Assembly (NCBI RefSeq): GCF_017743865.1
Contig: NZ_JAGHRJ010000001.1
Location: 682,001 to 746,000 of the forward strand
Reading direction: 5' to 3'
From: Labrenzia sp. R4_2
GTDB taxonomy: Bacteria > Pseudomonadota > Alphaproteobacteria > Rhizobiales > Stappiaceae
DNA length: 64,000 bases
Positions 9,789 through 26,797 of the stretch are shown here, piece after piece. The translations under genes were made by a program, and so were the position numbers. The notes under the pieces are model-generated. The model did not search any database. It was given only the letters and a program-made list of their open reading frames with translations, and was not told the DNA's origin. Within the stretch, counting starts at the first letter, position 1. Every line of letters begins with the position of its first letter.

Positions 9789-12182
9789 ATGATAGCGTAT
9801 TATGGGTATCCAAAAAATCCGCGAGTTCTTTTAGGTAAAAAATATTTTTATTTGGAAAATTTCACAATGGGCGCAAATGATACTTTTTTTGTAAGTTTTT
9901 ATAGCTCTAGCGGCGGTGGGATATCGCAAAGTATAGATGATTTTCTTTTGGTCGATCTGATTCCAGATAGCTTGGTGTTCAATCCCAGCCGTGGCGCTGG
10001 CGAAGGTACAGCAGTATTTAGTATATATCCGCCCAGCTCTGATCCAGATTCAATTTCTTTCTCTTGGAATCAAGTAAACTCCACCCTACCGAAGAACATA
10101 TACTTGACAGAGCCTAATGGAGTAAGAGGAGCTGTTGATCCTTTGAATCCGGATGGAGGAGCTTACTATCTGGATTTGGCAACCGGAAATATAATTCAAG
10201 ATGAGCCTAGAATATTTGATTTTGTGAACTCACAAATTAGTCCATCTGTCACTCAGTCTGAAATATCACAATACAATTCTTCGTGGTTGAGTTGGTATAA
10301 TACGGTAATTAATTCGTCAATTAATGGAATAACTCATAATATTGAGGGCGGAAATAGCTATTACATAGGTATCAATAATAGCTATACTGTGTCGCAGCTT
10401 GAAACAATAATACCAGCTATTACCAACAATGCAAAAACAATTGTTTTTGGTACCGAATACGATGACACTTTCACCATCACGGCAACAGATCAGAAAATCG
10501 ATCTCTACCTTGAAGGTGGAAACGATACGGTAAGACTAACCGCTGACGCCCTAGCAGGAGCTATTTTTGCAGGCGAAGGCGAAAACGATGCCGACACTCT
10601 GATCCTCTCAGGCGAAGCTTCAGATTATCAGTTTATCGACATAATCGGGCCAGACCTTGGTCTCGGTTTTGCTGCGGCTCAAATAAACGTCTTCAATACA
10701 AAAAATGACACTAGTTTCCTCATAAATGGCTTCGAAAATATAGTTTTCGACAATTCAAGTTTTGACAACGTCGTTAAAATGCAAACCTCATCTGGGTTCG
10801 GTGATTTTTTTGCGTTGGGAATGGCCCACTTGGCAAGGGACGCATATGTGGATCGCTACGCAAGCTTTGGCGATGGGGTAGTGCAACAACTGGCAACGTC
10901 TGACGGGTGGGAATTGTTAACCGGTTCGGAGCTCGGCCTGTCAGTTGACGGGCCAAACAACGATGCGAACGGCAGATACACCTTTGTCAACGGCGAATTC
11001 AGAAGTTCTGAATTTGCTTATGGCGAAGCCGTTGCGCACGTATACAAAGGCGTTCACAACGGCAAGCAAGCAATCGCGGTCGCTTTCCGTGGCACAGCGG
11101 ATCCGAGCGGTGCCGATTGGATCACAAATCTAAATGCAACTGCTGGCGCTTACGAAGAATACTTCAAAAATTACGCGCCGCTTGTAACCGCTCTTAAACA
11201 GTTCATCGGTGCCGGCGGTGTTGAAAACATTTATGTCACAGGCCACAGCCTTGGTGGCGCTATGGCGCAACGATTCATGCAAGAGTTTCCGGGTAACGGG
11301 TCTGTGTATGGGGTTACTTTCGGTGCTCCAGGGTTCCCGGGTGCTGCATCAGCATCGGACAACCGACTAATTCAGATCGAGCATGTGGATGATTTTGTCC
11401 CCTGGGCTGATGACATCTCAGCATTGGGAATAGATGCCCTTGCACCATTTCTAGCTCTCGGATCAGGATTGGGGTCAGTCGCTTCGGTTATCCAAGCTCT
11501 AACAACGCAGTTGGAAACATCCGGCCAAGAGGTTGTCATTAGAAGAGACAACAGTCTGGTAGACGGGAATGTTATCGAAGCTCGGTTATACAATCACGAC
11601 ATTGATATTTATGTAGACTCTGTAGAACAGGTGATACGGGATACCGGAATTCCCCCATCCTGGATGAATAAGGGGCCTCATGGCACCATCTCCGATGAGG
11701 CGATCAACTATATTGATCCGGACTTTGTAAACCCACCCGTTGATGTTGCGGGCGGTATTTACCGCTTCTTTAATCAAAGCACAGGAAGTCATTTCTACAC
11801 AGCAAGTGCTGAGGAGCGGGATTCGCTTTACGCTGGAACAACAAATTTCAGCTACGACGGCGCGTCATTTAAATCTGCGAGCGTTGTTTCAGACAGCAGT
11901 CCTGTATTCAGGTTTTACAACAAGGTTTCTGACAGCCATTTTTATACAAACTCGGAAGCTGAGCGCGACCAGATCATTGCCAACTTGCCCGACCTGGTGT
12001 TCGAGGGTGCCGCTTACGACGCCTATTCGGAAGCCGGGGAAGGCCGTGAAGAGCTGTATCGGTTCTACAATACTGAAACAGGTTCGCACTTTTACACGGC
12101 CTCCGAAGAGGAGCGCGACATTGTTAAAACCCTTCAAGGTTATGACTATGAGGGCGTAGCTTATTGGGTTAACCCCGTTTAG
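9789..12182 (+). CDS. Lipase (class 3)/RTX-like protein with three C-terminal DUF5648-like repeats
   Basis: A 797-aa cargo protein. Residues 1-220 are AT-rich, N/S/Y-rich and unrecognised. About 220-320 is an RTX-like segment (FGTEYDDTF, LEGGNDTVRL, ILSGEASDYQF). About 345-610 is a class 3 alpha/beta-hydrolase: VAVAFRGTADPSGADW, nucleophile Ser487 in VTGHSLGGAMA, acidic residue in HVDDFVPW (about 535), likely catalytic His in YNHDIDIYV (about 603). From about 655 to the end are three repeats of the form YRFYN..SHFYT.S..ERD...YEG. No Sec signal is present; the RTX character suggests type I secretion. Start may be ATG 9789 or ATG 9867, the latter with a better ribosome site. Likely an extracellular esterase or effector; the target is unknown. 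Confidence 0.8.
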   Translation: MIAYYGYPKNPRVLLGKKYFYLENFTMGANDTFFVSFYSSSGGGISQSIDDFLLVDLIPDSLVFNPSRGAGEGTAVFSIYPPSSDPDSISFSWNQVNSTLPKNIYLTEPNGVRGAVDPLNPDGGAYYLDLATGNIIQDEPRIFDFVNSQISPSVTQSEISQYNSSWLSWYNTVINSSINGITHNIEGGNSYYIGINNSYTVSQLETIIPAITNNAKTIVFGTEYDDTFTITATDQKIDLYLEGGNDTVRLTADALAGAIFAGEGENDADTLILSGEASDYQFIDIIGPDLGLGFAAAQINVFNTKNDTSFLINGFENIVFDNSSFDNVVKMQTSSGFGDFFALGMAHLARDAYVDRYASFGDGVVQQLATSDGWELLTGSELGLSVDGPNNDANGRYTFVNGEFRSSEFAYGEAVAHVYKGVHNGKQAIAVAFRGTADPSGADWITNLNATAGAYEEYFKNYAPLVTALKQFIGAGGVENIYVTGHSLGGAMAQRFMQEFPGNGSVYGVTFGAPGFPGAASASDNRLIQIEHVDDFVPWADDISALGIDALAPFLALGSGLGSVASVIQALTTQLETSGQEVVIRRDNSLVDGNVIEARLYNHDIDIYVDSVEQVIRDTGIPPSWMNKGPHGTISDEAINYIDPDFVNPPVDVAGGIYRFFNQSTGSHFYTASAEERDSLYAGTTNFSYDGASFKSASVVSDSSPVFRFYNKVSDSHFYTNSEAERDQIIANLPDLVFEGAAYDAYSEAGEGREELYRFYNTETGSHFYTASEEERDIVKTLQGYDYEGVAYWVNPV

Positions 12183-12604: not shown

Positions 12605-14842
12605 CTATGCAGCATCCACGTAGAATGCTACGCCTTCATAATCATAATGTCCGAGCGTGGAGATGATACTGTCGCGCTCGTCCGCCGAGGCCGTATAAAA
12701 ATGCGAGCCGCTTTGGGTGTTGAAGAACCTGTACAGAGCCGTCCCGCCGGCATCCGCTGTCTCGCTGGCATAATAGGCGATGCCTTCATAACTGAATTGC
12801 GGCAGGCTGTTTTGGATGCTCTGCGCTTCTGCGGCACTAGCGGTATAAAAGTGAAACCCGCTGTCAGAGTTGTAAAACCGGTGAACTGCAACACCTCCAC
12901 CCGCTTCCGTGGCATTTGAGTCGAAGCTGTTGCCCTCATAGGTCATCGTCGGGATATTTGTAATGACCGAATTGCGCTCTTCAATGCTTGTGGTGAAGAA
13001 GTGTGAGCCCGTCAGCGTGTTGTAAAACCGGTAAATCTGGAAAGGACTTCCATCCGCATCCGCTGGTTCGACAACCGCTGCAGCAAGCGTCATGGTCTCC
13101 GTGCTGAATGTCAGATTTTCAATATTTTGCAGAAAGTCTGTGCCGTCACGGTTTGCTGCAAGGTCCATGACAGTTGTAATGCCGTTTGACGTGAAAACAA
13201 CGTAATCTGACCGCGCGCCGGAGAACACAGCTGTGTCTGTACCCGTACCGCCGTCGACAGTGTCATTACCATTTCCGCTCACAAAACTGTCATTCCCGGC
13301 ATAGAGCCGTACAATGCTGTTGCCATGCGCCATCGTGAAATTGTCGTCCGCATCTGTTCCGGACACATTTGCACCTGAAGCCATGCCGGACCGTCCCTCG
13401 GACATACCCACTGCCAAGTAATGAGCCAATCCACTCGCATAGGTGCCATTGTCCACCAGGGCTTGGACGTCGGAATTGGAATTCAGGTAAAAGAGCTCAT
13501 TGAATCCAGCCGCACCCGATGACGCCGGGTTGGCACCTCCCGGTCCCGTCGAAACCGCAGCTGTCAAATTGAGCGGATCATTCCAAATGTCGCCATTAAT
13601 CGCAAGCATCTGAACAAATTCAACACCGTCCGGCGTTGTGACCGGAACGGCCCTACCGGCAAGATATGCATTATCTTCTGAGAGAATTTCGTTGAAGAAG
13701 ATGGCCCCAAACCGGCCCACTCCATCGTTCAGCCAGAAAGCCGGCGCATCATACTTCTCGCCGCTGCCCTCAAAATATGGAACGAGGTCCAGGAAGCCGT
13801 CATTATTCAGGTCGATTGTCCGCAGAAATTTCATGTGATAGCCAGGGTCGCGCTCAAAGTTTTCACCTAGCCGGAAAGCTGAAGCTGTATCATCACTAAA
13901 GTTGCCGCTACCGTCGTTTATAAGCAGCTGCACCTCCCAGCCGGGGTTTATGAATTGCCCATTGTCGCCGGTATGAACATGCAATATGTCTAGATCACCG
14001 TCATTATCGACATCCAACGGAACGATTTCATAACTGATCGATTTCTGTCCGATATTCTTCGGGTCCGGCAAATTCTGGGCGGCGTTGTCGTTAAAACGCC
14101 CAGTCCCGTCATTGAAAAAGACCTTGGAGTAAAAGGCCTCGCCTCTGACTTCAGAATCAATTTTACCCAAAACCATGTCTTCGAAGCCGTCTCTATCGAG
14201 ATCAGCAAACTCAACAGTTAAAAATCTTGAATAATGTGCCGGATCGATCACGCTTGAAGGTAGTCTATCATATTCTACTACAAAACTTCCCGCACCATTA
14301 TTTATCAACATGTACGGAATTACAGTGTTCGTTGTAGTGCCAATATTTGCAACATAAATGTCTAGGTCGCCGTCTCGATCTACATCCACTGAGGCCGCAG
14401 AATGACTAAATTCGCCCTCAAAAAAGGGGACTGGTGCAGAGCTCAGCTGTCCGTCGCCATTTGACAGTAAGAGAACATTTGCTTCGCCCGGAAACGGCTC
14501 AAAATCCCATCCGTGAGCAGCGACAAAGACGTCATTGTACCCGTCGCCATTAAAATCATCTGAAATAATCCGACGCGGCCAGACCGTCGGATCAAATTCT
14601 TCCGGAGCGATGATATTGGTAGCGATGCTAATCTGTGCCGTTGAATTGACGTCAAAGACAATCCCATGTCGCGCTACATCTTCAGAAGAATTATGGCCAC
14701 TTATAATGATTTCATCATATCCGTCATTGTCCAAGTCGATCGGCAACGGCAGCGATGTTTCAACTGGAATGCCTGGATTAAAAACCTGTTGGTTATTGAA
14801 TGAGACCTCATACAGCGTGTTGAAACTATATGTGCTGGTCAT
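12605..14842 (-). CDS. FG-GAP/VCBS beta-propeller protein with RTX segment and three DUF5648-like repeats
   Basis: A 745-aa protein. Residues 1-400 hold repeated calcium-binding FG-GAP/VCBS blades (DLDNDGYDEIIISGH, DFNGDGYNDVFVAAHG, DVDRDGDLDIYVANIG, DVDNDGDLDILHVHTG), predicting a seven-blade propeller. About 485-600 is an RTX-type stretch (AGNDSFVSGNGNDTVDGGTG, TDTAVFSGARSDY). The last 145 residues are three YRFYN/SHFYTAS repeats nearly identical in pattern to those in the two other cargo proteins. No signal peptide is present; the start MTSTYSFNTLYEVSFNNQ follows a GGAGGC ribosome site. Probably exported and calcium-dependent. Function, adhesion or hydrolase-like, is unknown. Confidence 0.8.
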   Translation of the reverse strand: MTSTYSFNTLYEVSFNNQQVFNPGIPVETSLPLPIDLDNDGYDEIIISGHNSSEDVARHGIVFDVNSTAQISIATNIIAPEEFDPTVWPRRIISDDFNGDGYNDVFVAAHGWDFEPFPGEANVLLLSNGDGQLSSAPVPFFEGEFSHSAASVDVDRDGDLDIYVANIGTTTNTVIPYMLINNGAGSFVVEYDRLPSSVIDPAHYSRFLTVEFADLDRDGFEDMVLGKIDSEVRGEAFYSKVFFNDGTGRFNDNAAQNLPDPKNIGQKSISYEIVPLDVDNDGDLDILHVHTGDNGQFINPGWEVQLLINDGSGNFSDDTASAFRLGENFERDPGYHMKFLRTIDLNNDGFLDLVPYFEGSGEKYDAPAFWLNDGVGRFGAIFFNEILSEDNAYLAGRAVPVTTPDGVEFVQMLAINGDIWNDPLNLTAAVSTGPGGANPASSGAAGFNELFYLNSNSDVQALVDNGTYASGLAHYLAVGMSEGRSGMASGANVSGTDADDNFTMAHGNSIVRLYAGNDSFVSGNGNDTVDGGTGTDTAVFSGARSDYVVFTSNGITTVMDLAANRDGTDFLQNIENLTFSTETMTLAAAVVEPADADGSPFQIYRFYNTLTGSHFFTTSIEERNSVITNIPTMTYEGNSFDSNATEAGGGVAVHRFYNSDSGFHFYTASAAEAQSIQNSLPQFSYEGIAYYASETADAGGTALYRFFNTQSGSHFYTASADERDSIISTLGHYDYEGVAFYVDAA

Positions 14843-15240: not shown

Positions 15241-17088
15241 TCACGCCAAGTCTACGTAAAAGGCGATGCCTTCATAGGTGTAGTGGCCGAGCGTGCTGAT
15301 GATGCTGTCGCGCTCGTCTGCCGATGTTGTGTAGAAATGTGTGCCAGCGGCTTCGTTATAGAATCTATACAGCTTTTGCGAACTATCTGAGCCGTTTGCA
15401 TCTGCATAGTAGGCAATTCCCTCATACTGAAAATGCGGGATCGAGTTCATTACACTTTCGCGTTCTTCATCTGAAATCGTATAAAAATGTGTTCCGTTTG
15501 AACTGTTGTAGAACCGATACACGGCATCACCGTTGCTTGTGGTTACATTGGTATCGAAGGCATTGGCCTCAAAAACAAAATTTGGCAATTCAGATAAGAC
15601 CTGATTACGTTCTAATACGCTGTTGGTGTAAAAATGGGCACCGGTCTCCGTATTGTAAAAGCGGTAAATCTGGCTAAGGCCGGAATTCAGGCCATTTGGT
15701 TGATCCGGAAGCGTGTTCAGCACTGTCGTGTCAGCGCCGAGCAATGTTTCAATGACAACTGCATCCGAACCGTAGCTCGAAACAGCATCAATCCGAGAAT
15801 CGTTGTTGAGATCGCTCAGAAGCCCTGAGATCGGAAGAGTGACGTTCTGCGGAACGAAGTTTGTTTGGATTGCCGCAAAAGTGCCGTCCCCGTAGTTGAG
15901 ATACAGCAGCGGGTTCGTTGAAGAAAACGATTGTGACGTGTTTACAAAAATATCCTGATGGCCATCGCCATTTACATCAAGAAACAAGGGACTGCCGTTT
16001 GAAGCCGTGTTGAGATTGTAGCCGCCTGTCGCAGTAAGTGGTGAAATCTCGTCTGTCTGAGGGCCGAGCCGTGTCGCAGTCTCATCGACAAAACCACCGT
16101 TGCCATCACTGATTAATATCTGCAGGTACCGGCCGGTGCCGTCGTATGCCGGATCAGGTTCAACTGGTTCGTTTTGCCCAGCCAGTATTTGCCGAGAATG
16201 GGAAATGAGTACATCATCGAAACCGTCTCCGTTGAGGTCTGTGGTATCGATTGCAGACGCAACAACAAAACCATCGTTGAAGGACGGCAGCGGCAGCTTA
16301 ATCACCGCACTGTTGTTGAAGTCGCCAGTCCCATCATTCAGCAGAACAGTTCCACGTGCATTTTCCAAGGTGTCAGGTGTCGCGTTGACAGAGTTTTCCC
16401 GTTCTGGGCCAAAAACCAGGTCAAGGGCACCATCACCGTTAAAGTCACCAAGTGCCGCGGAGTTATTAATGTTCTGAAACTGGGGGATGCGGTCTGAAAC
16501 CTGTTCAAATTGTCCCGCTCCATTGTTTAATAGGATTGTAGGCCCGCTAATGGTTCCTCCACCTCCGCTATCAAGCAAAATGTCGACATCGCCGTCACCG
16601 TCTATGTCTCCGGCGTCCATACCTTTACTATGTAAATTGACAGAGGCGAGCGAGCTGACTTGATATCCAGCGGAGGAGCTTAGGAAAACAAATGCAGGTT
16701 GTAGTAAGAAATTATTGAAGTTCGGATCTGTCGAGGGCAGTGAGAAGTCCTTGTAACCGTAATCGGTTAGCGCCAGATCAACTATACCATCGTTGTTGAA
16801 ATCGGCTTCAACCGTAACAGGTACGAACATACTTGGAAGCGTTTGAGCAACTGCTGATGTCGTATCCAAAGCAAATGAACCGTCGGCTTGCTGCACTAGT
16901 AGTGAGAACTGCGGCGCAGCAGTCGCGGTATCACCATACCCATTTGCGACCAAGAGATCCGGGCGGCCGTCCCGCGAGAAATCTAAAGTGGAAATGACAG
17001 CTCCGAAGCGGAAACCCGAAACCTCACCGACCAGAGTTGGGGGGGAGAAATAGGCCATAGCGATATTGTCCAAATCTAGATTTTGCAA
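15241..17088 (-). CDS. FG-GAP/VCBS beta-propeller protein with three C-terminal DUF5648-like repeats
   Basis: A 615-aa paralogue of the protein encoded at 12605-14842, but without the RTX stretch. Blades are visible as DFSRDGRPDLLVANGYG, DFNNDGIVDLALTDYG, DIDGDGDVDILLDSG, DFNGDGALDLVFGPE, DLNGDGFDDVLISH and DVNGDGHQDIFVNT. The final 145 residues are three repeats, the last (SADERDSIISTLGHY then YEG) matching its paralogue almost residue for residue. The two genes probably arose by duplication and exchange of tails. No signal peptide is visible, and no secretion genes are in the window. Confidence 0.8.
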   Translation of the reverse strand: MQNLDLDNIAMAYFSPPTLVGEVSGFRFGAVISTLDFSRDGRPDLLVANGYGDTATAAPQFSLLVQQADGSFALDTTSAVAQTLPSMFVPVTVEADFNNDGIVDLALTDYGYKDFSLPSTDPNFNNFLLQPAFVFLSSSAGYQVSSLASVNLHSKGMDAGDIDGDGDVDILLDSGGGGTISGPTILLNNGAGQFEQVSDRIPQFQNINNSAALGDFNGDGALDLVFGPERENSVNATPDTLENARGTVLLNDGTGDFNNSAVIKLPLPSFNDGFVVASAIDTTDLNGDGFDDVLISHSRQILAGQNEPVEPDPAYDGTGRYLQILISDGNGGFVDETATRLGPQTDEISPLTATGGYNLNTASNGSPLFLDVNGDGHQDIFVNTSQSFSSTNPLLYLNYGDGTFAAIQTNFVPQNVTLPISGLLSDLNNDSRIDAVSSYGSDAVVIETLLGADTTVLNTLPDQPNGLNSGLSQIYRFYNTETGAHFYTNSVLERNQVLSELPNFVFEANAFDTNVTTSNGDAVYRFYNSSNGTHFYTISDEERESVMNSIPHFQYEGIAYYADANGSDSSQKLYRFYNEAAGTHFYTTSADERDSIISTLGHYTYEGIAFYVDLA

Positions 17089-17968: not shown

Positions 17969-18058
17969 GGAGAGGTGGCCGAGTGGTCGAAGGCGCTCCC
18001 CTGCTAAGGGAGTAGGCGGGCAACCGTCTCGAGGGTTCGAATCCCTTCCTCTCCGCCA
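17969..18058 (+). tRNA. tRNA-Ser(GCU)
   Basis: A 90-nt class II tRNA with encoded CCA. The acceptor stem GGAGAGG pairs with CCTCTCC. The anticodon stem CTCCC/GGGAG encloses the loop CTGCTAA with anticodon GCT. The long variable arm (TAGGCGGGCAACCGTCTC) is typical of serine. The T arm contains GGTTCGAATCC. The 5' half up to the anticodon loop belongs to the integrated element's repeat; the 3' half is the original chromosomal sequence. Confidence 0.97.
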
Positions 18059-19412: not shown

Positions 19413-19682
19413 TCAGCGCACTTTCAGATCGCTCTTTGGCTTTGGGGTGTCGGCGGTTTCGGTCCAGGTGAGGCGGAGATCGATGCGGTTGGAGCCGCTG
19501 GAGCGCTCGGCGCGGACCCGCACCGTGATCAACCCGCCCGGTTCCAGAACGATCTCTTCATCGCCATCGCTCAAGGTCAACTCGCCTTTGCCAATACCCT
19601 TGGTCACCGCCTCCAAAAGGGCCTTGATGGACTTGCGGCTTTGAAGGGACTCGTGGCGGAAACTGCCGTCGCCGTTTTGCAT
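19413..19682 (-). CDS. Amphi-Trp domain protein
   Basis: An 89-aa protein that begins SFRHESLQSRKSIKALLEAV. It continues KGELTLSDGDEEIVLEPGG and ends with an alternating strand (NRIDLRLTWTE) whose Trp gives the amphi-Trp domain its name. As I recall from TIGRFAMs, this domain is a defining member of the GAK cassette with an ATP-grasp enzyme and HprK-related kinase B, both encoded just upstream here. It is the last gene of the operon, 15 bp after the metallophosphoesterase. Probably the small substrate or carrier of the cassette, which is inference. Confidence 0.75.
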   Translation of the reverse strand: MQNGDGSFRHESLQSRKSIKALLEAVTKGIGKGELTLSDGDEEIVLEPGGLITVRVRAERSSGSNRIDLRLTWTETADTPKPKSDLKVR

Positions 19683-19697
19683 CGATGCACTCTTTTC

Positions 19698-21017
19698 TCA
19701 AAGATGATGTTCTGGCTTGAAATGTTTGACCCTTGGATAGTCGGAACTCAAGCCCACAACGTCGCCTGAGGGGAAAATAAGCGTCGCGCCCGCGCCGATG
19801 CCGGTGAGGCCTTCCAGACGGCGGGAGGTCCGGTCCAGCGTGATGTCGCCTTCCAGGTGCAACAGCCCGTTCTTGGCCAGGATCCGCTGGCCTTTATGGT
19901 TGTTGACGTGGCCCTGAACGATCATCTTGATGCCAGCCTGGTGCAGAAGCTCAACGCCTGAGGCCGTCAGTTGTCCGTCAACCGGCCGGTATTTGGTGCG
20001 AACCAGATTGGCAACCGGGCCGGAATAAAAGGCAAATGGATCATCTTCGGCTTCCAGCCGGTAGCGCGCGTTGACGGCGGCGGGGCCGTCTTTGGCCAGC
20101 AGTGCGCACATGGTGTCATCGATCCCCGCATGCAGAAAAACGATGGATCCGATCTGTTCGACCACATCCATGGCCGAATAAAACCAGCTGTAGGCACCGT
20201 CCGGGCTCAAAAAGAGATCTCGGCACCGCAGCGACGCTGCGTAGACCTCGCGCATGGTGAGGCCTTCCGCGTGCGCCTGTTTGGCAAACTGTTTTGCCTT
20301 TTTCTTCAGCTTCTTGAGCTCTTTTTCGATCCCCAAGGTCGTCAGATACGGCGCAGCTGCTGCGGGGAACGTTTCCTTCCAGCTTTTGGACGGAAAGATC
20401 CGCTCACGGCACTCCGCCTCGTCCGGCAGGTTTGCCAGGTCTTCCGATGTCACGTAACGCGTGTTGATTTCGGCTAAGAGCGGCAGGATCTTGCGGCCCA
20501 TGCGGACAAAAAGGTGTTCGGTGAGCGGGGCTTTCGGCAAGGTCAGCGCCCGGATCGCAAGCCGCAGCCGAAGATCATGATTTCCCGCAAGCAGACGGAC
20601 GTCAGCGCCAAGATCAAACAGGCGTTTCAGTGCGTTCAGCATGTCGAGGTTGGACGGGCCCTTGTCGAGGCAATCGCCCCCGACGATGATTTTCGCCATC
20701 TGGCCGAAGGGCGTCAGGACAAACCCGTCGTTAAGGCGGCGAACCGCACCGGCTGAAACAAGGGACCGCAAAAAACCGTCGGCATCGGCATGCGGGTCGG
20801 AGATGAAGACAACCGGTTTCTCCGGCCAGGTCCATGTGCCGTGCGAGGCAGCAGCGGCCAAACTGGCGCGAACCGCGCCGGCATTGCCGCCTGAATGATC
20901 CTCATGGAGGGGCCAGGGTTCCAGGTTGCGGGGAAGCGCTGAGAGTTCACCCACATCATCGAAGACAGGCGGCAGCATTGGGTGCGATCTTGCTGCGCGA
21001 CCGGTATGGACTGCCAT
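19698..21017 (-). CDS. Metallophosphoesterase (PPP-like)
   Basis: A 439-aa calcineurin-fold phosphoesterase. Metal ligands are visible in the standard order: ISDPHADADG (Asp74, His76), IVGGDCLDKG (about 112-120), LLAGNHDLR (Asn146, His147), then VFLHAGIDD and VQGHVNNHKG. A charged helical insertion (KELKKLKKKAKQFAKQAHAE) lies in the middle. The motif set points to a serine/threonine or small-molecule phosphatase of the PPP group. It starts 10 bp after the histidine phosphatase stop and belongs to the operon that begins at 25758. The substrate is likely a phosphorylated product of the cassette kinases, by context only. Confidence 0.85.
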   Translation of the reverse strand: MAVHTGRAARSHPMLPPVFDDVGELSALPRNLEPWPLHEDHSGGNAGAVRASLAAAASHGTWTWPEKPVVFISDPHADADGFLRSLVSAGAVRRLNDGFVLTPFGQMAKIIVGGDCLDKGPSNLDMLNALKRLFDLGADVRLLAGNHDLRLRLAIRALTLPKAPLTEHLFVRMGRKILPLLAEINTRYVTSEDLANLPDEAECRERIFPSKSWKETFPAAAAPYLTTLGIEKELKKLKKKAKQFAKQAHAEGLTMREVYAASLRCRDLFLSPDGAYSWFYSAMDVVEQIGSIVFLHAGIDDTMCALLAKDGPAAVNARYRLEAEDDPFAFYSGPVANLVRTKYRPVDGQLTASGVELLHQAGIKMIVQGHVNNHKGQRILAKNGLLHLEGDITLDRTSRRLEGLTGIGAGATLIFPSGDVVGLSSDYPRVKHFKPEHHL

Positions 21018-21027
21018 GATTGAAGGC

Positions 21028-21732
21028 CTAATCGAGCGTCTTATCCGTTAGCTGGCGAATCTTCCACGTCCCGCCAATGTGCGCCCATGTACCATTTTCT
21101 ATGTGACAGAGATGTAACGGCCGGGCGTGGTGCATGCTGTATTGAGCGATCTGATCACGGCTCACGACACCGAGGAGGTGCGCCGCGTGCCGGAAAGAAG
21201 CCCCATGGCCAAAATGCAGCGTCACCGTTCCGGAAGGTTGTTCAGCTGTTGTGCGGGTCAAATGATCCGCAACCCGTTGTCCTGCCATGATCAGGGATTC
21301 CGCACCTTGCAGCGGCAGGCAATAGTCGCTGTCCGATTTCCATGCCACAGGAGGCGCGTCAAAGCGGGGGTCTTCAGTAAGGACGTTCTCAATTTCGTCG
21401 AGCGTCAGATTTGCTGCGCTGCCGACAGAGCGTTCAGCCAGGGAAGGTGTCTGCTCGATGGTCAAGGTGTACCCGTGTTTGATAAGGACATCACACGCGA
21501 GTTGGGCCGTCTGCCAAGCCCGAAGCTGGCAGGAGGAATAAACGATCGGATTGAGTGTCAGGTGTTCGTCTGAAAGCCACCTGGCGAGCTCTTCGCCACA
21601 GGTGTTGGCCTGCGCTTTACCGTTTTCCGTCAGGGGAAAGGGCTGCAAGGCACTGGGCACATTCTTGCGCTGGTGATAGTCGCCGTGGCGGATCAAAACC
21701 GCGATAGGGCTTGTGGCAACCGAACCGGTCAT
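21028..21732 (-). CDS. Histidine phosphatase family protein
   Basis: A 234-aa member of the phosphoglycerate-mutase-like superfamily. The phosphohistidine motif is intact near the N-terminus (VLIRHGDYHQR, RHG at about 14-16), Arg/Glu contacts are visible (SSCQLRAWQTAQLA; TPSLAERSVG), and the second catalytic His is in TVTLHFGHGASFRH. Its ATG overlaps the stop of the HprK-related kinase gene (ATGA), so the two are translationally coupled. It would remove phosphate from a protein or small molecule in the cassette. The substrate is unknown. Confidence 0.88.
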   Translation of the reverse strand: MTGSVATSPIAVLIRHGDYHQRKNVPSALQPFPLTENGKAQANTCGEELARWLSDEHLTLNPIVYSSCQLRAWQTAQLACDVLIKHGYTLTIEQTPSLAERSVGSAANLTLDEIENVLTEDPRFDAPPVAWKSDSDYCLPLQGAESLIMAGQRVADHLTRTTAEQPSGTVTLHFGHGASFRHAAHLLGVVSRDQIAQYSMHHARPLHLCHIENGTWAHIGGTWKIRQLTDKTLD

Positions 21733-22802
21733 ACAAAGAGATCCTTGCCAGTCGCAGCCAATGCATCGAAATCGATGGCGCCGGTCACTTCGCGAATCCG
21801 GACGCTCTTGAGCTGCCGGAGATAAGCGTCCGGCTCCAACGGGTCGTCATCTTGCAGGAAGACACCACTGGCATCCTGAAAGAACGGGCCCGCGCTTTTC
21901 ATGATCGCGCCGAGGAGGTCGGGCCGCTGCGTGAGGTCTGCATCCAGGAGGCGCGTTGGCTCGGTCGAAGTCCGGCTCCAGTTCAACACCCAGAATTCCG
22001 TGAGGGGCGCTGAGAATGATATACGGTCCGGGCCATAGACCTCACTGATGAAGAGGTCATGTTTTTCTTCCAGTTGCCAAAGGTCTTCCGGTGGCATCTG
22101 CAGCAGCTCTCTTTTTCGTTCCTCGGACAGCAAAGGTGCCAGGCGCGGATTGTGCAAAATCGTACCTGGGTTGATGCGCGGATTTTTGGGAATGCCGAGA
22201 CCTTCGGTGTCGTTCGGTGCCGCGCGCACCATGAGCCTGTCATTGGTGACAAAACGGGTCGGCTCGAGATCCATCATGCGCAGGATGGCGGTCGATTTTC
22301 CACCGCCGGACAGTCCGGCAATCGCAAGGCCCTTGTACCCATCGGTTACGGCTGCCGCGTGACAGATCTCCCAACCATCCCGCTTGCAGATGTTGAGGAT
22401 CTGCGTGTTGATGAAGTTGATCACCTGATTGGGATAAGCGAGGCAGGGCCCGAACGCTGTGAGAGCTTGCGGTGACTGCAGGAAGGTTAAGCCCGTGCGG
22501 ATCTTGTGCACCAACCGGCCATCGTCCAGATCAAAATACGCGTCCTTGCGCCCGGTTTTGCCCGGTTCGCGCGCCCAGTCGATCCACTCCGGCGGGGTGC
22601 TGAGACTTTGCCCCTCCAGAACGTCGATGGTGGCTGCAACCGGCCCGGCTGCTGCGAGCGCTTCTTTCAAGTGGTGACGCAGCTCAACAGCCATCGGTAT
22701 ATTGCACCGGACTGCAAGGCGCACCGGCCCGGTCTCAAGATAAAGGGTTTCCGGCAAACCGTTGCGGTTCAGCTGAGCAAGCACATTCGCAACCGATCTC
22801 AT
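21729..22802 (-). CDS. HprK-related kinase B
   Basis: A 357-aa protein related to the C-terminal kinase domain of HPr kinase/phosphorylase. The P-loop is IAGLSGGGKSTAILRMM (about 161-177), preceded by WEICHAAAVTDG as in HprK-like proteins. A downstream region FVTNDRLMVRA corresponds to the metal/catalytic segment. An N-terminal 140 aa without a clear fold carries LDDGRLVHKIRTGLTF. The start overlaps the upstream ATP-grasp stop (ATGA), and its own stop overlaps the next gene. Family name recalled from TIGRFAMs (HprK_rel_B, GAK cassette). It probably phosphorylates a cassette protein; the target is not known. Confidence 0.82.
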   Translation of the reverse strand: MRSVANVLAQLNRNGLPETLYLETGPVRLAVRCNIPMAVELRHHLKEALAAAGPVAATIDVLEGQSLSTPPEWIDWAREPGKTGRKDAYFDLDDGRLVHKIRTGLTFLQSPQALTAFGPCLAYPNQVINFINTQILNICKRDGWEICHAAAVTDGYKGLAIAGLSGGGKSTAILRMMDLEPTRFVTNDRLMVRAAPNDTEGLGIPKNPRINPGTILHNPRLAPLLSEERKRELLQMPPEDLWQLEEKHDLFISEVYGPDRISFSAPLTEFWVLNWSRTSTEPTRLLDADLTQRPDLLGAIMKSAGPFFQDASGVFLQDDDPLEPDAYLRQLKSVRIREVTGAIDFDALAATGKDLFV

Positions 22803-23680
22803 CGGGTCACCTTCGCTATCACATGATCTGCAAGAGCCGCAGCTGCATCGACACCACAGCCTTCCTTGGCCCCGCGATAACCGCCGAAGGCAGACACTTC
22901 GAAGACGATTGAGCCCTCGTCGGTCAGTGCGACATCGACGGTCGTGAAATCAAGGCCGAACGGCGCCTGTGCTTTTCTGGCAAGCTCGATCAGGTCGGCA
23001 TCCGGTTCAAAGGGCGCATATTTGCCGCCGCTGTGGATCGTCGTGTTCCAGCTATCGGATTGGCTGACCCGGGCGTAGGTGCACAAGTAGTCACCGCCCA
23101 GGAACACCATTCCGAGATCCTGTCCGGAAAGGTTCAGCTTTTCCTGGATGTACATCATCGGATTGTCTTCAGCGAACGCGGCGATCTCGGCCCGGGCGTT
23201 GGCGCCCGCCTCGATGATGCACATTCCGCGCGCTTTGGTAGAGTACAGCGGTTTGAAGACGGCCGCGCCATAGCGCTCCACCGTAGCTTCTGCAGCATTC
23301 AGATCTTCTGTCACGACCGTTGCCGGCATGGGTGCTCCGGCCGCGCGCAGAGAGACCGTGCAAGCAAGCCGGTCGATCAGCCGCAACACGGCCTCGGGGC
23401 GGGAGAAGATTTTGACGCCGCGGCTTTCGGCAAAGCGCAAAAGCTCCAGCCGGTCGAGCGCATGCGGACTGTAGATTTCGCTGATCTTCTTGATGATAAG
23501 CCCGTCAAGCGCGCAAAGGTCCTGGCCTTGGTACATGACGGCACCGGTTTCCAGATCCAGCGTCACCGCGGCCATGTCGATCACCAGACGGTAGCCGGTC
23601 TTGGCCGCGATCACATCGGCAAGGGCTTCTGTGGACCATTTGCCGGGAATGCCAACGACCCCGATCTTGATGTCAGTCAA
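22799..23680 (-). CDS. ATP-grasp ligase, GAK-cassette type (RimK-like)
   Basis: A 293-aa ATP-grasp enzyme beginning LTDIKIGVVGIPGKWSTEAL. Nucleotide-binding parts include AAVFKPLYSTKARGM and QEKLNLSGQDLGMVFLGG. The metal/catalytic region is VFEVSAFGGYRGAKEG, where the usual Asn of the RimK EVN motif is Ser. The start is TTG at 23680, eight bases inside the upstream gene and preceded by AAGGAG at good distance. The longer frame to 23857 is low-quality shadow sequence. Relatives ligate amino acids to protein or peptide termini. Its acceptor is unknown; the amphi-Trp protein is a candidate. Confidence 0.82.
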   Translation of the reverse strand: MTDIKIGVVGIPGKWSTEALADVIAAKTGYRLVIDMAAVTLDLETGAVMYQGQDLCALDGLIIKKISEIYSPHALDRLELLRFAESRGVKIFSRPEAVLRLIDRLACTVSLRAAGAPMPATVVTEDLNAAEATVERYGAAVFKPLYSTKARGMCIIEAGANARAEIAAFAEDNPMMYIQEKLNLSGQDLGMVFLGGDYLCTYARVSQSDSWNTTIHSGGKYAPFEPDADLIELARKAQAPFGLDFTTVDVALTDEGSIVFEVSAFGGYRGAKEGCGVDAAAALADHVIAKVTR

Positions 23681-25310
23681 CGAACAACTCCTTGATGGGC
23701 AGTTTGAACCGCTCTTCCTTGCCTTCCGGACACTCCAGCGCCTGTTCGAGCAAGAAACGGGCGCGGATGAACATGCGCCGCGCGTGGGATTTGTCGAACA
23801 CGAACCGCGTGGAGGTGGCAAAGCTGCGCGCAAGGCCGAGGGCGAGGCGGTACTCATAGGTCCGGTCTTTCTGGGACCGGGCGAATTTTGCAGCGACCGA
23901 TTGCAGGTCGCAGGCGACTTTGGCGAGCCGGCGGCGCACCGGAATGTCCTGGATTTGCAGCCGGTAGTTGGAAATCATGAAGACGGAGACGTCCTGAACG
24001 TAATCCATATAGCGGGAGCGGTGCAGGTCGATGAAATGCAGCTTCTTTTCCGCTGGGTCATAGATGACATTGTCGAGATTGAAGTCGCCGTGGATGTGCA
24101 CGGAGAAGGCCGCTTCGAGTTTGTCTTCACGCTCCGCGGCTTCCCGGACAAGTTCGTCGAAACCTTTCAGACGCAGCCCGCCGAAACGTTGCGGCTCGGC
24201 GCGGAATTCCGGATGTACCCGGTAAACTTCCGGCAGGCGCCGGGACAACTGGCGCATGGAGGCCATCACCGCTGGTTCTTCCATGCGGGTGCTGCGCCAC
24301 ACGTCGTTCAGGGTCTTGGCCAGTTTCTTCTGGGCTTCCGCGAGAAGGGCGTCGTTTTCGTTGAGGACCAGCTGCTCAAATGTGTAGCCCGGCAAATGCT
24401 CGATCAAAAGGGCGGCTGATTGGCCGCGTTTCTGATAGGACAGGATCTTGGGGGCCAGTCCCGGATAGATCGCGTGCCAGCTTTTCACGCCCGCCCGTTC
24501 TTCGCGCACCTTGCGCAGTTCCCCATCCTTGAAGACCGCATTGACGGGTTCCCCGTTTTCGCTGCGCGAACGCACGGAAGAGATCGCACTGCCGGACCGG
24601 GTTTCCGCCAAGGGGACCATGTCGACCGGCTCGTCGTCCTTGGTCGATGGCAGGAGGCTTTTCAGCGTGAAATAACGTTCGAACTGGACCGGCTGCCCAA
24701 GATTGACCGACAAGATCGCTTCAGAGATCGATTGGAGCGCGTCGCCGATGCGCCGGATTTCGTTGGCAACCAGCAGGCTGTTCGCAAGATCGGCTGTGTG
24801 CTTGGACTTGCGCATATCCTCGGTCAGTGTGCGGAACACCCGATCGTACAGGTCCTCCATCTTTTCACGGATCTGCCCGATCCGAACCGCGGATTTGCTG
24901 TCAGACCGGGCAAGGGCCGGCTGAATAAGTTTCAGGCTGTCGCGAACCTGCTTGAGAACCTTGGTGTAGGCATCGGCCCGCAGGTAAGCCTTGCGGTCCA
25001 CAGTCTCAGCGTATGTCAGGCTGCGCCGGGCCAGACGGCTGATCAGGTCAAGGTTCTGCGCAATCAGTTCGACATTTCGCAGCAGGTTCTGCTGTTCGGA
25101 AGTGACCTTCTTTTGAGACAGAATTTGCGTGCTGGCTTTGGTCAGCTTTGAAGCGAGATTGTAGGAATACCCTGCGCGCAAAATGACCTTTTGCGCGGCT
25201 GCCTGACTTGGGGACTGGAAGTAGTCCTGCATCCCGGCGAGCTGACCGTCGATTTCCACGCTCAGAAAATAAAGGTTCTCGTCGATCGCGCGGGGGAGTT
25301 TAGCCATCAA
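23673..25310 (-). CDS. PhoU-like domain fused to an APH-type phosphotransferase
   Basis: A 545-aa two-domain protein. Residues about 5-215 are all-helical and carry two PhoU-like motifs: RNVELIAQNLDLISRL (78-93) and ANEIRRIGDALQSISEAIL (182-200), comparable to the ERIGDHATNIAE helix of PhoU. Residues about 255-520 are an aminoglycoside-phosphotransferase-like kinase: hinge LLIEHLPGYTFE (301-312), catalytic loop IHGDFNLDNVIYD (406-418, Asp409, Asn414), metal Asp428 in FIDLHRS. It overlaps the Nudix stop by 11 bp and the ATP-grasp start by 8 bp. The fusion suggests a phosphate- or polyphosphate-responsive small-molecule or protein kinase. The substrate is not known. Confidence 0.8.
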   Translation of the reverse strand: MMAKLPRAIDENLYFLSVEIDGQLAGMQDYFQSPSQAAAQKVILRAGYSYNLASKLTKASTQILSQKKVTSEQQNLLRNVELIAQNLDLISRLARRSLTYAETVDRKAYLRADAYTKVLKQVRDSLKLIQPALARSDSKSAVRIGQIREKMEDLYDRVFRTLTEDMRKSKHTADLANSLLVANEIRRIGDALQSISEAILSVNLGQPVQFERYFTLKSLLPSTKDDEPVDMVPLAETRSGSAISSVRSRSENGEPVNAVFKDGELRKVREERAGVKSWHAIYPGLAPKILSYQKRGQSAALLIEHLPGYTFEQLVLNENDALLAEAQKKLAKTLNDVWRSTRMEEPAVMASMRQLSRRLPEVYRVHPEFRAEPQRFGGLRLKGFDELVREAAEREDKLEAAFSVHIHGDFNLDNVIYDPAEKKLHFIDLHRSRYMDYVQDVSVFMISNYRLQIQDIPVRRRLAKVACDLQSVAAKFARSQKDRTYEYRLALGLARSFATSTRFVFDKSHARRMFIRARFLLEQALECPEGKEERFKLPIKELFVD

Positions 25311-25758
25311 AAACTCCCAGATAGACCGGTGCGGTGGTGGTCAGCGCTGCAGCGTAAGCCGGGCGGAACTCCGCCGCTCTTGAAACCGGAGAGGCCCAGA
25401 TCGTCCCGATCTGAGAAGGGTCGGGATGGGGACCCATGACCGGCATATAGTCGTCAGGAACGTTACACGCGAACAGCAGCTCCAACTGATGCCGCTTCCC
25501 GTCCGCTTTGGTCTTGAAGACTTCGGCAACATGCAAAAGGGGGCCTACGGTCACGGTCGTGCCGACTTCTTCCGCACATTCCCGGATCAATGCTTCTTCT
25601 GCCGTTTCGCCTGGGTCCTGCTTTCCACCTGGCAAGGTCAGACAGGCTGCAGCGCCGAGCTTTTGCTTCACCTGTGCCAAAAGATCTCCGTTTCGAAAGA
25701 TGACGGCCCGGACAGTTGGGCGGATCGGTTCCAGAACCTTGGTCTGTTTCAGTTTCAT
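25300..25758 (-). CDS. Nudix hydrolase
   Basis: A 152-aa single Nudix domain. The box is complete: LPGGKQDPGETAEEALIREC continuing to AEEVGT (G-x5-E-x7-REUxEExGU). The N-terminus PTVRAVIFRNGDLLAQVKQK is the usual first strand. The start chosen is ATG 25758 (MKLKQTKVLEP); the frame is open much further upstream into the divergent gene, but that part is shadow. It is the first gene of the seven-gene minus-strand operon. It would cleave a nucleoside-diphosphate-linked or diphosphorylated compound; the substrate is unknown. Confidence 0.88.
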   Translation of the reverse strand: MKLKQTKVLEPIRPTVRAVIFRNGDLLAQVKQKLGAAACLTLPGGKQDPGETAEEALIRECAEEVGTTVTVGPLLHVAEVFKTKADGKRHQLELLFACNVPDDYMPVMGPHPDPSQIGTIWASPVSRAAEFRPAYAAALTTTAPVYLGVFDG

Positions 25759-25909
25759 GGCGGTGTACAGTGGCTCTGAGAAGGAAACGTGACAGCAATT
25801 CAGAACCGTTGATAACACCGAATCGTTGGGCTGGTCTAAATGGTTCAAGATCCTGTGCCAACACACCGTGATAGACTGATGGGCAGCCTGTCGGTGGAGA
25901 CGCTTTGAG

Positions 25910-26797
25910 ATGACGAAAAACGCTACGGAGTTGTTGCTTCTCTGCGCCGGCGCTGGGGCCAAGGATTGGGACGGCGCAAAAAGGAGACGGCCCCTGCGCA
26001 CCAAGGGAAAACGCCAGGCCCAGAAGATCGGTGCCTGGATGGGCCAGCACGGCTTGCGGCCTCTAAAAACGCTCACGACAACCGATGAACGTGCCATGGC
26101 GACCGCGCAAAAAGCGCTGAAGGCTGGCGGCTGGTCCGCGCAGGGTGTGGTTCAATCACCGGATCTCACGAAAGGCGTCATTCCTGCGATTGCCGATGAA
26201 GACCGTGTGTTGCTGGTTGCACCCAAAAAGACGGTCGCAGATCTGCTCAGCTCTCTTGGGGTTCAAGAAAATTTGTCTCTGGGCGTTCTTGTTCGCCTAG
26301 AGAAAACTCCCACGGGCACCAAAATCCGGGAGGTCATCGACCCGCAGGATTTGCCGGATCTCTTTCCCTATCCTGGCCCGGATGGTCCTGAGCGCCGGGA
26401 GCGGCCAGCCTATTATTACAACCAGTCTGCCGTTATTCCCTTCCGCCACAGGCCGGAGGGCAAGGAAGTCCTGATAACAGGTTCATCGAGTGGACGGCAT
26501 TGGGTCGTTCCGAAAGGCATCGTTGATCCGGGCCTAAGTCCCGCGGAGTCGGCCAGAGTGGAAGCCCGGGAAGAGGCCGGTGTCGAGGGCAACGTCGGCG
26601 CTGGTCCCCTTGGAACCTTCACTTACGAAAAGTGGGGGGCGGTGTGCGAGGTTGAGGTCTATGCGATGGAAGTTACCCGTATCCTGCCAGCAGATGCTTG
26701 GGAGGAAAGCCACCGGCAGCGCACATGGGTGCCGGCCGAGACGGCCGCAGCCATGTTGTATCAGAAGGCCTTCGGTCCGCTCATCGCGCAGCTCTGA
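25910..26797 (+). CDS. Nudix hydrolase with degenerate SixA-like N-terminal domain
   Basis: A 295-aa fusion divergent from the phospho-cassette operon. Residues 1-130 follow the SixA/histidine phosphatase pattern (RPLRTKGKRQAQKIGAWMG, TLTTTDERAMATAQKAL), but the catalytic RHG is replaced by CAG (LLLLCAGAGAKDWDG). The second His motif VGHN is replaced by VAPKK (LLVAPKKTVADLL), so phosphatase activity should be lost. Residues about 165-295 form a diphosphoinositol-phosphohydrolase-like Nudix domain with box PKGIVDPGLSPAESARVEAR continuing to EEAGVEG. An intact fusion of this kind would pair a phosphatase with a pyrophosphohydrolase. Here the first domain is probably regulatory. Confidence 0.85.
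   Translation: MTKNATELLLLCAGAGAKDWDGAKRRRPLRTKGKRQAQKIGAWMGQHGLRPLKTLTTTDERAMATAQKALKAGGWSAQGVVQSPDLTKGVIPAIADEDRVLLVAPKKTVADLLSSLGVQENLSLGVLVRLEKTPTGTKIREVIDPQDLPDLFPYPGPDGPERRERPAYYYNQSAVIPFRHRPEGKEVLITGSSSGRHWVVPKGIVDPGLSPAESARVEAREEAGVEGNVGAGPLGTFTYEKWGAVCEVEVYAMEVTRILPADAWEESHRQRTWVPAETAAAMLYQKAFGPLIAQL

Follow-up and report, generated by a model that had tools for sequence, protein, structure and literature searches.

The cassette and its genes

At positions 19413 to 26797 of a 64,000-nucleotide stretch of the Labrenzia sp. R4_2 genome (the window; coordinates below are positions within it unless a locus or contig is named) lies a run of eight genes, an extended form of the GAK cassette that is conserved as a module. 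Seven genes are on the minus strand (19413-25761) and one is divergent, on the plus strand. Along the minus strand the order is a Nudix hydrolase of 153 residues (25300..25761; PF00293, 48 bits), a 544-residue fusion of a PhoU domain with an aminoglycoside phosphotransferase (APH)-type kinase (PhoU-APH, 23673..25307; PF01895 and PF01636), the GAK ATP-grasp ligase, of 293 residues and with a TTG start (22799..23680; TIGR04356, 477 bits against a cut-off of 300), the HprK-related kinase B, of 357 residues (HprK-B, 21729..22802; TIGR04355, 305.9 bits, cut-off 200), a 234-residue histidine phosphatase of branch 1 (21028..21732; PF00300, His_Phos_1, 70.1 bits), a PPP/ApaH-like metallophosphoesterase of 439 residues (19698..21017; PF00149, Metallophos, 26.5 bits) and the amphi-Trp protein, of 89 residues (19413..19682; TIGR04354, 74.5 bits, cut-off 31; PF20068). 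The divergent gene (25910..26797) encodes a SixA-like domain fused to a Nudix domain (PF00293, 34 bits; TIGR00249, 17.5 bits, below its cut-off).

A preliminary description had placed these eight genes at these positions and in this order, which is confirmed here, and NCBIfam and Pfam profile searches uphold its family assignments for all eight proteins. It had also recognized the ATP-grasp, HprK-B and amphi-Trp proteins as GAK members, and each does score above its NCBIfam cut-off; the fourth GAK family, a CofD-like protein, was overlooked. Overlaps are present as described at 21729-21732 and 22799-22802 (4 bp each) and at 23673-23680 (8 bp). The overlap of the PhoU-APH and Nudix genes at 25300 depends on the start codon: it is 11 bp with a TTG start (25310), as first reported, and 8 bp with the next ATG (25307). 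The Nudix gene itself, read from its own ATG, spans 25300-25761; a longer listed open reading frame would overrun the divergent gene.

Conservation and gene order

Does the cassette persist outside this strain? A survey of 93 loci was assembled from the best 80 of at least 493 ATP-grasp relatives found in a scan of species genomes, together with 13 further loci, 12 of them from a draw of 398 genomes of the phylum and one from the same-genus genome G286; the window itself and genome G326 are excluded. As loci were collected by ATP-grasp similarity, the presence of that protein (93/93) is by construction, and retention of the best 80 biases the sample to close relatives. With presence defined as a match of more than 60 bits on the cassette strand, HprK-B is found in 93/93 loci; PhoU-APH comes next with 92, followed by amphi-Trp (88), PPP (83), the histidine phosphatase (81), Nudix (60) and SixA-Nudix (30). 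The SixA-Nudix gene is divergent, as in the window, in a further 11 loci. HprK-B directly follows ATP-grasp in all 93 loci, PhoU-APH directly precedes it in 92, and in 60 loci a co-directional Nudix gene stands ahead of PhoU-APH. One locus lacks PhoU-APH (L104) and five lack amphi-Trp (L058, L122, L136, L138 and L145); all six are truncated at that place by a contig end. Synteny thus extends far beyond this strain, as the single-system idea of the preliminary description would have it, and it includes plasmids: ATP-grasp is present on five plasmid records, and in the three plasmid cassettes that were examined the order is unchanged but SixA-Nudix is lacking; one of them includes Nudix and two a divergent CofD-like gene.

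The families differ in how firmly they are held. PhoU-APH, which the preliminary description had added to the system, occurs in 13 of the 398 phylum genomes, and these are exactly the 13 with ATP-grasp above cut-off. Free separation of the families is not seen for PhoU-APH, ATP-grasp, HprK-B and amphi-Trp, with G326 as the exception; it is seen in part for the others, with the Nudix genes variable and both phosphatases gone from certain cassettes. PPP is missing from ten of the 93 loci, namely four cut by contig ends and six Rhodobacterales cassettes in which HprK-B runs straight to amphi-Trp. The histidine phosphatase is missing from the same ten and from L086 (a remnant) and L059. A genome-wide search, made for PPP in six genomes, found none in those of L069, L070, L072, L074 and L099 and a remnant in that of L086. 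Pairwise-identity correlations between families are 0.65-0.94, values inflated by common ancestry.

Within the order, HprK-B is above cut-off in two of 297 genomes, the window genome and G286. At a contig end (L050 1-1668) genome G326 has an ATP-grasp gene of 273.7 bits (below the cut-off of 300) adjoining HprK-B but no PhoU-APH, possibly a reduced or decaying cassette. Amphi-Trp and CofD-like genes are each found without the cassette in some genomes. Seven to nine genes keep together in many Proteobacteria, with PhoU-APH, ATP-grasp, HprK-B and amphi-Trp as the minimum; their products are three enzymes that use ATP, several that remove phosphate, and one small helper protein. Given the invariable succession of ATP-grasp and HprK-B, with PhoU-APH before them in all loci but one, the cassette is very probably one functional module and not a product of chance; the preliminary interpretation as a whole is partly supported.

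The cassette appears to have been transferred horizontally as a whole. In a tree of 45 rows, built by a quick method from concatenated PhoU-APH, ATP-grasp and HprK-B, cassette proteins alone, the window cassette clusters with those of AO1-B, Roseibium HCUG1433-1 and Phaeobacter marinintestinus inside the Rhodobacterales copies (Shimodaira-Hasegawa-like approximate likelihood ratio test, SH-aLRT, 100), and the G286 cassette, although from the same genus, lies apart from it in a Roseibium and Stappia group (SH-aLRT 99). These placements, with Roseobacteraceae copies for the window cassette and with Roseibium for its same-genus counterpart, suggest the transfer. AO1-B and HCUG1433-1 are the nearest rows for all eight window proteins.

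The CofD-like partner

The fourth GAK family, CofD_rel_GAK (TIGR04357), is represented in the window genome by a single copy at 402690-403781 of contig C21 (507.4 bits, cut-off 340). The gene is flanked there (L046 9247-12618) by one for D-ribose pyranase and, beyond a 103-residue open reading frame, by a glycerate 2-kinase-like gene; the latter neighbour recurs in eight of 34 CofD loci. CofD-like genes lie inside the locus in 54 of the 93 loci, 53 of them on the strand opposite the cassette; relative (up- or downstream) positions in this survey are skewed by the use of longest open reading frame starts. For the 80 named loci the count is 52, and of the 28 remaining, 27 were searched genome-wide (all but L145), with the gene found at some other place in the genome, or on a different contig, in 23 and not at all in four. 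The partner thus stands divergent beside the cassette or elsewhere in the genome, and is usual, not universal. Above cut-off it occurs in six of the 398 phylum genomes, five of the 13 with ATP-grasp and one of the 385 others (G301), so that eight of the 13 have ATP-grasp without it; two 398-genome draws are here treated as one, as their handles and tallies match. No match of the partner to the F420 CofD transferase family was seen up to E 0.01, where CofD_rel_GAK and YvcK alone are listed.

Enzyme features

In the ATP-grasp protein K143, R204, D249 and E261 are invariant in a 14-row alignment, and MptN is its next-nearest family. HprK-B has a P-loop, SGGGKST, which with H148 and N187-D188-R189 is invariant in 19 rows. 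Its predicted fold matches ATP-dependent phosphoenolpyruvate carboxykinase (PEPCK) along the whole length. By sequence profile the HprK of this genome (E 7e-8, 89 columns) is closer to it than the PEPCK of this genome (E 4e-4, 35 columns). No Pfam family, Hpr_kinase_C and PEPCK_ATP included, matches HprK-B up to E 0.01. The window genome encodes its canonical HprK in a separate gene, and PF01293 matches one gene there, on contig C20, which is not HprK-B.

PhoU-APH retains the motifs HGDFNxDN and IDLHR...D (16-row alignment) and carries a Pfam PhoU domain (31.7 bits, cut-off 23.5). It falls short of the PhoU regulator family TIGR02135 (36.6 bits against 130.25) and of the aminoglycoside phosphotransferase resistance families (APH(3'), 36.2 against 205).

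Of the hydrolases, PPP retains its metal-site motifs, with D74, H76, D115, G145, N146, H147, D148, H296 and H370 invariant in 18 rows, and scores 18.7 bits where the symmetrical Ap4A hydrolase cut-off is 176. The histidine phosphatase retains RHG and GHG (consensus of 82 rows), and the Nudix hydrolase at 25300..25761 has an intact Nudix box. The SixA half of the divergent fusion has neither the RHG nor the GH motif, with CAG and APK in their places. Among 40 aligned SixA-Nudix members, the window's included, RH is kept in 24, the histidine alone in three, and the catalytic histidine is lost in 13, the window protein among these. With its catalytic motif lost, the SixA half is probably inactive as a phosphatase here, and the four phosphate-removing enzymes counted in the preliminary description would then be an overcount.

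The amphi-Trp protein is predicted as a helix followed by four strands (AlphaFold2, predicted local distance difference test score 87), and comparison of the model with solved folds gave no usable match. Of 299 phylum genomes, 19 have the family above cut-off; ATP-grasp is present in 11 of these, and in a further one, G458, PPP adjoins amphi-Trp. On haloarchaeal plasmids the gene has no GAK neighbours in any of the four cases examined. Position 12 is serine in 87 of 89 cassette proteins (the window's included) and alanine in two, and is serine in three of the four solitary haloarchaeal proteins. Ser12 is thus neither invariant nor specific to the system, and the proposal that amphi-Trp serves as the acceptor of a modification is unsupported.

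Phosphate and polyphosphate neighbours

Apart from CofD, the recurrent neighbour that hints at the chemistry is a pair of CHAD and ParA genes. CHAD is near the cassette in 11 of the 93 loci and a ParA partner in ten; the CHAD, CYTH and ParA-type names are backed by Pfam in the members scanned. In L137 a single strand carries CHAD, ParA, CYTH, PhoU-APH, ATP-grasp, HprK-B, histidine phosphatase, PPP and amphi-Trp; in L058 CHAD-ParA heads the cassette co-directionally; and in L055 an AAA_21 gene, a RloB-like gene and CHAD-ParA lie between PPP and amphi-Trp. CHAD, a ParA-type ATPase and CYTH also form a small co-directional unit near cassettes (L137 5483-8237, L091 2398-5134). CHAD domains are described as binding polyphosphate, and lone CHAD genes as frequent in polyphosphate operons (PMC6537752). 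Less than 0.2 such neighbours per 93 loci would be expected by chance (93 x 8/21 x 20 kb/4.5 Mb, genome size assumed), a rough figure; the loci are non-independent and represent at least three lineages. A ParA protein together with CHAD would fit the positioning of polyphosphate granules.

At their far ends L119, L122 and L139 carry a PhoU gene and one for a PBP_like_2 protein, which on our reading is PstS-type; L120 has the latter as well (both queries were from L119). A PhoU-domain protein of L122 (4-876) weakly resembles low-molecular-weight phosphotyrosine phosphatase at its C-terminus (E 6.6e-6).

A proposed function and its alternatives

What might such a module do? We tentatively favour, at well below even confidence, a reversible phosphorylation and ligation module tied to phosphate or polyphosphate status or storage. 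In PhoU-APH the PhoU half would sense the state of phosphate, and the kinase half would act with HprK-B, of PEPCK/HprK fold, in phosphorylating a substrate. The ATP-grasp protein, with its amide-ligase features, may join an amino acid or amine onto a substrate carboxylate, the CofD/YvcK-like protein could handle a nucleotide-activated intermediate, and the Nudix, histidine phosphatase and PPP enzymes would strip or recycle phosphorylated products, with amphi-Trp as the putative small carrier or adaptor. The phosphate link comes from the PhoU domain and from the CHAD/ParA, PhoU and PBP_like_2 neighbours; the ligase role comes from the profile match of ATP-grasp to RimK/LysX structures, with MptN as the next family.

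Several observations weigh against this proposal. CHAD-associated ParA (more than 250 bits) occurs in eight of 21 cassette genomes, chosen in part because some were known neighbours, and in eight of 34 others, which is no clear enrichment; the window genome lacks it and has a generic ParA match alone (112 bits). PPK2 was found in none of the 93 loci (PPK1 and PPX lay outside the search), and in most loci, that of the window among them, CHAD does not adjoin the cassette. PPP (five of six genomes) and, at the level of the locus, the histidine phosphatase can be lost. The full-length PEPCK likeness of HprK-B favours a small-molecule substrate. With ParA unenriched and absent from the window genome, and PPK2 absent from the loci, the phosphate or polyphosphate link is taken as a lead; the polyphosphate-like group guessed at in the preliminary description gains from the neighbours but not from genome-level co-occurrence. 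A more specific version of the proposal is improbable: a so far undescribed control module for phosphate or polyphosphate storage that moves horizontally, in which a compact PEPCK-like kinase, along with the PhoU-kinase fusion, would drive the ATP-grasp protein to tag a substrate bound by amphi-Trp reversibly with a phospho-amino acid. We know of no other signalling system with phospho-amino-acid tag chemistry.

Nearly as likely as the reversible module, though still doubtful, is a pathway that makes a phosphorylated small molecule with an amino-acid tail. HprK-B would make a phosphorylated small acid, as its PEPCK-like fold would allow, the CofD/YvcK-like protein would transfer or activate it, the MptN-like ATP-grasp would add amino acids and the hydrolases would clear intermediates, giving a tail chemically like those of F420 or methanopterin. 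The CofD-like protein, however, matches YvcK (124 bits) with the F420 CofD family unlisted, and it is missing from those eight of the 13 ATP-grasp genomes; the cassette has no scaffold-making enzyme, and the profile of HprK-B is the one nearer HprK. A protein phosphocycle like that of the phosphotransferase system, with HprK-B phosphorylating Ser12 of amphi-Trp and the phosphatases reversing it, is unlikely. The HprK-type core and P-loop of HprK-B and the near-constancy of Ser12 speak for it, but amphi-Trp is predicted to have its helix before four strands, unlike the order in HPr, the serine is replaced in some cassettes and kept in solitary archaeal proteins, and the genome has its canonical HprK elsewhere. 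That the locus is an accidental run of phosphate-handling genes is highly improbable, for although certain lineages lack the histidine phosphatase, PPP or Nudix genes, flanks vary between lineages and G326 lacks PhoU-APH, order and co-occurrence are kept in loci named as Alpha- and Gammaproteobacteria.

Surroundings of the cassette

The G+C content of the cassette, 0.58-0.60, is like that of the right flank; the left flank is lower, at 0.45-0.50 from 14000 on. Three large proteins within 7.5 kb of the left flank (9789-12182, 12605-14842 and 15241-17088) have DUF5648 at the C-terminus, two of them with FG-GAP repeats, and a tRNA-Ser(gct) gene is at 17969-18058, 1.4 kb from the cassette. Of the eight proteins, seven match no model of the PADLOC anti-phage defence collection. 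The Nudix protein has a match to PDC-S07 (41.8 bits, E 1.8e-11) that is confined to the Nudix domain, and by these models the cassette is not classed as a defence system. Seven loci have a CNNM-type membrane protein encoded a few kb ahead of the cassette (L119 5094-6338, L120 3911-5296, L122 5324-6565, L123 4967-6457, L127 4962-6455, L129 4956-6455 and L139 5159-6445).

Comparison with known systems

Four families carry the GAK system name in NCBIfam, and the model names give no function. A search of 5.39 million open-access papers for these family names yielded none about the system, with one Enterococcus proteomics paper coming up for a CofD-like protein (most subscription papers lay outside its scope), and that on combinations of cassette parts, judged mostly from listings, held nothing recognizable as the system. 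To our knowledge, five points are new: the extended gene set, the CofD-like partner in trans, a PEPCK-like fold for HprK-B, decay of the SixA half, and linkage to CHAD-ParA in occasional loci. With the gene set fixed, the unlinked partner found, the architecture of HprK-B described and neighbours from polyphosphate modules at hand, what was an orphan name becomes experimentally approachable.

How does the cassette compare with what is known? By profile its ATP-grasp protein matches structures of the RimK/LysX ligases, but it has ExS where ExN is expected from RimK, MptN and LysX, and it stays below each RimK-type cut-off (TIGR00768, 92.7 against 143.4; MptN, 130.5 against 350). HprK-B shares the P-loop kinase core of HPr kinase/phosphorylase and ATP-dependent PEPCK and is PEPCK-like in overall architecture; it differs from HPr kinase/phosphorylase in having Asn for the first aspartate of the HprK DDR. 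For the CofD-like partner the YvcK/GlmR uridyltransferase family (TIGR01826) is the next nearest, yet its 124 bits are below the cut-off of 196 and it constitutes a separate NCBIfam family. The CHAD/CYTH polyphosphate modules are occasional neighbours of cassettes, yet stand outside the cassette and the window. The closest likeness is to the GAK system itself (TIGR04354 amphi-Trp, TIGR04355 HprK_rel_B, TIGR04356 grasp_GAK and TIGR04357 CofD_rel_GAK), all four families of which are above cut-off in this genome. The extended cassette differs from that system as named in having four more regular families, PhoU-APH, histidine phosphatase, PPP and Nudix/SixA-Nudix, and in that here the CofD-like gene is unlinked to the cassette.

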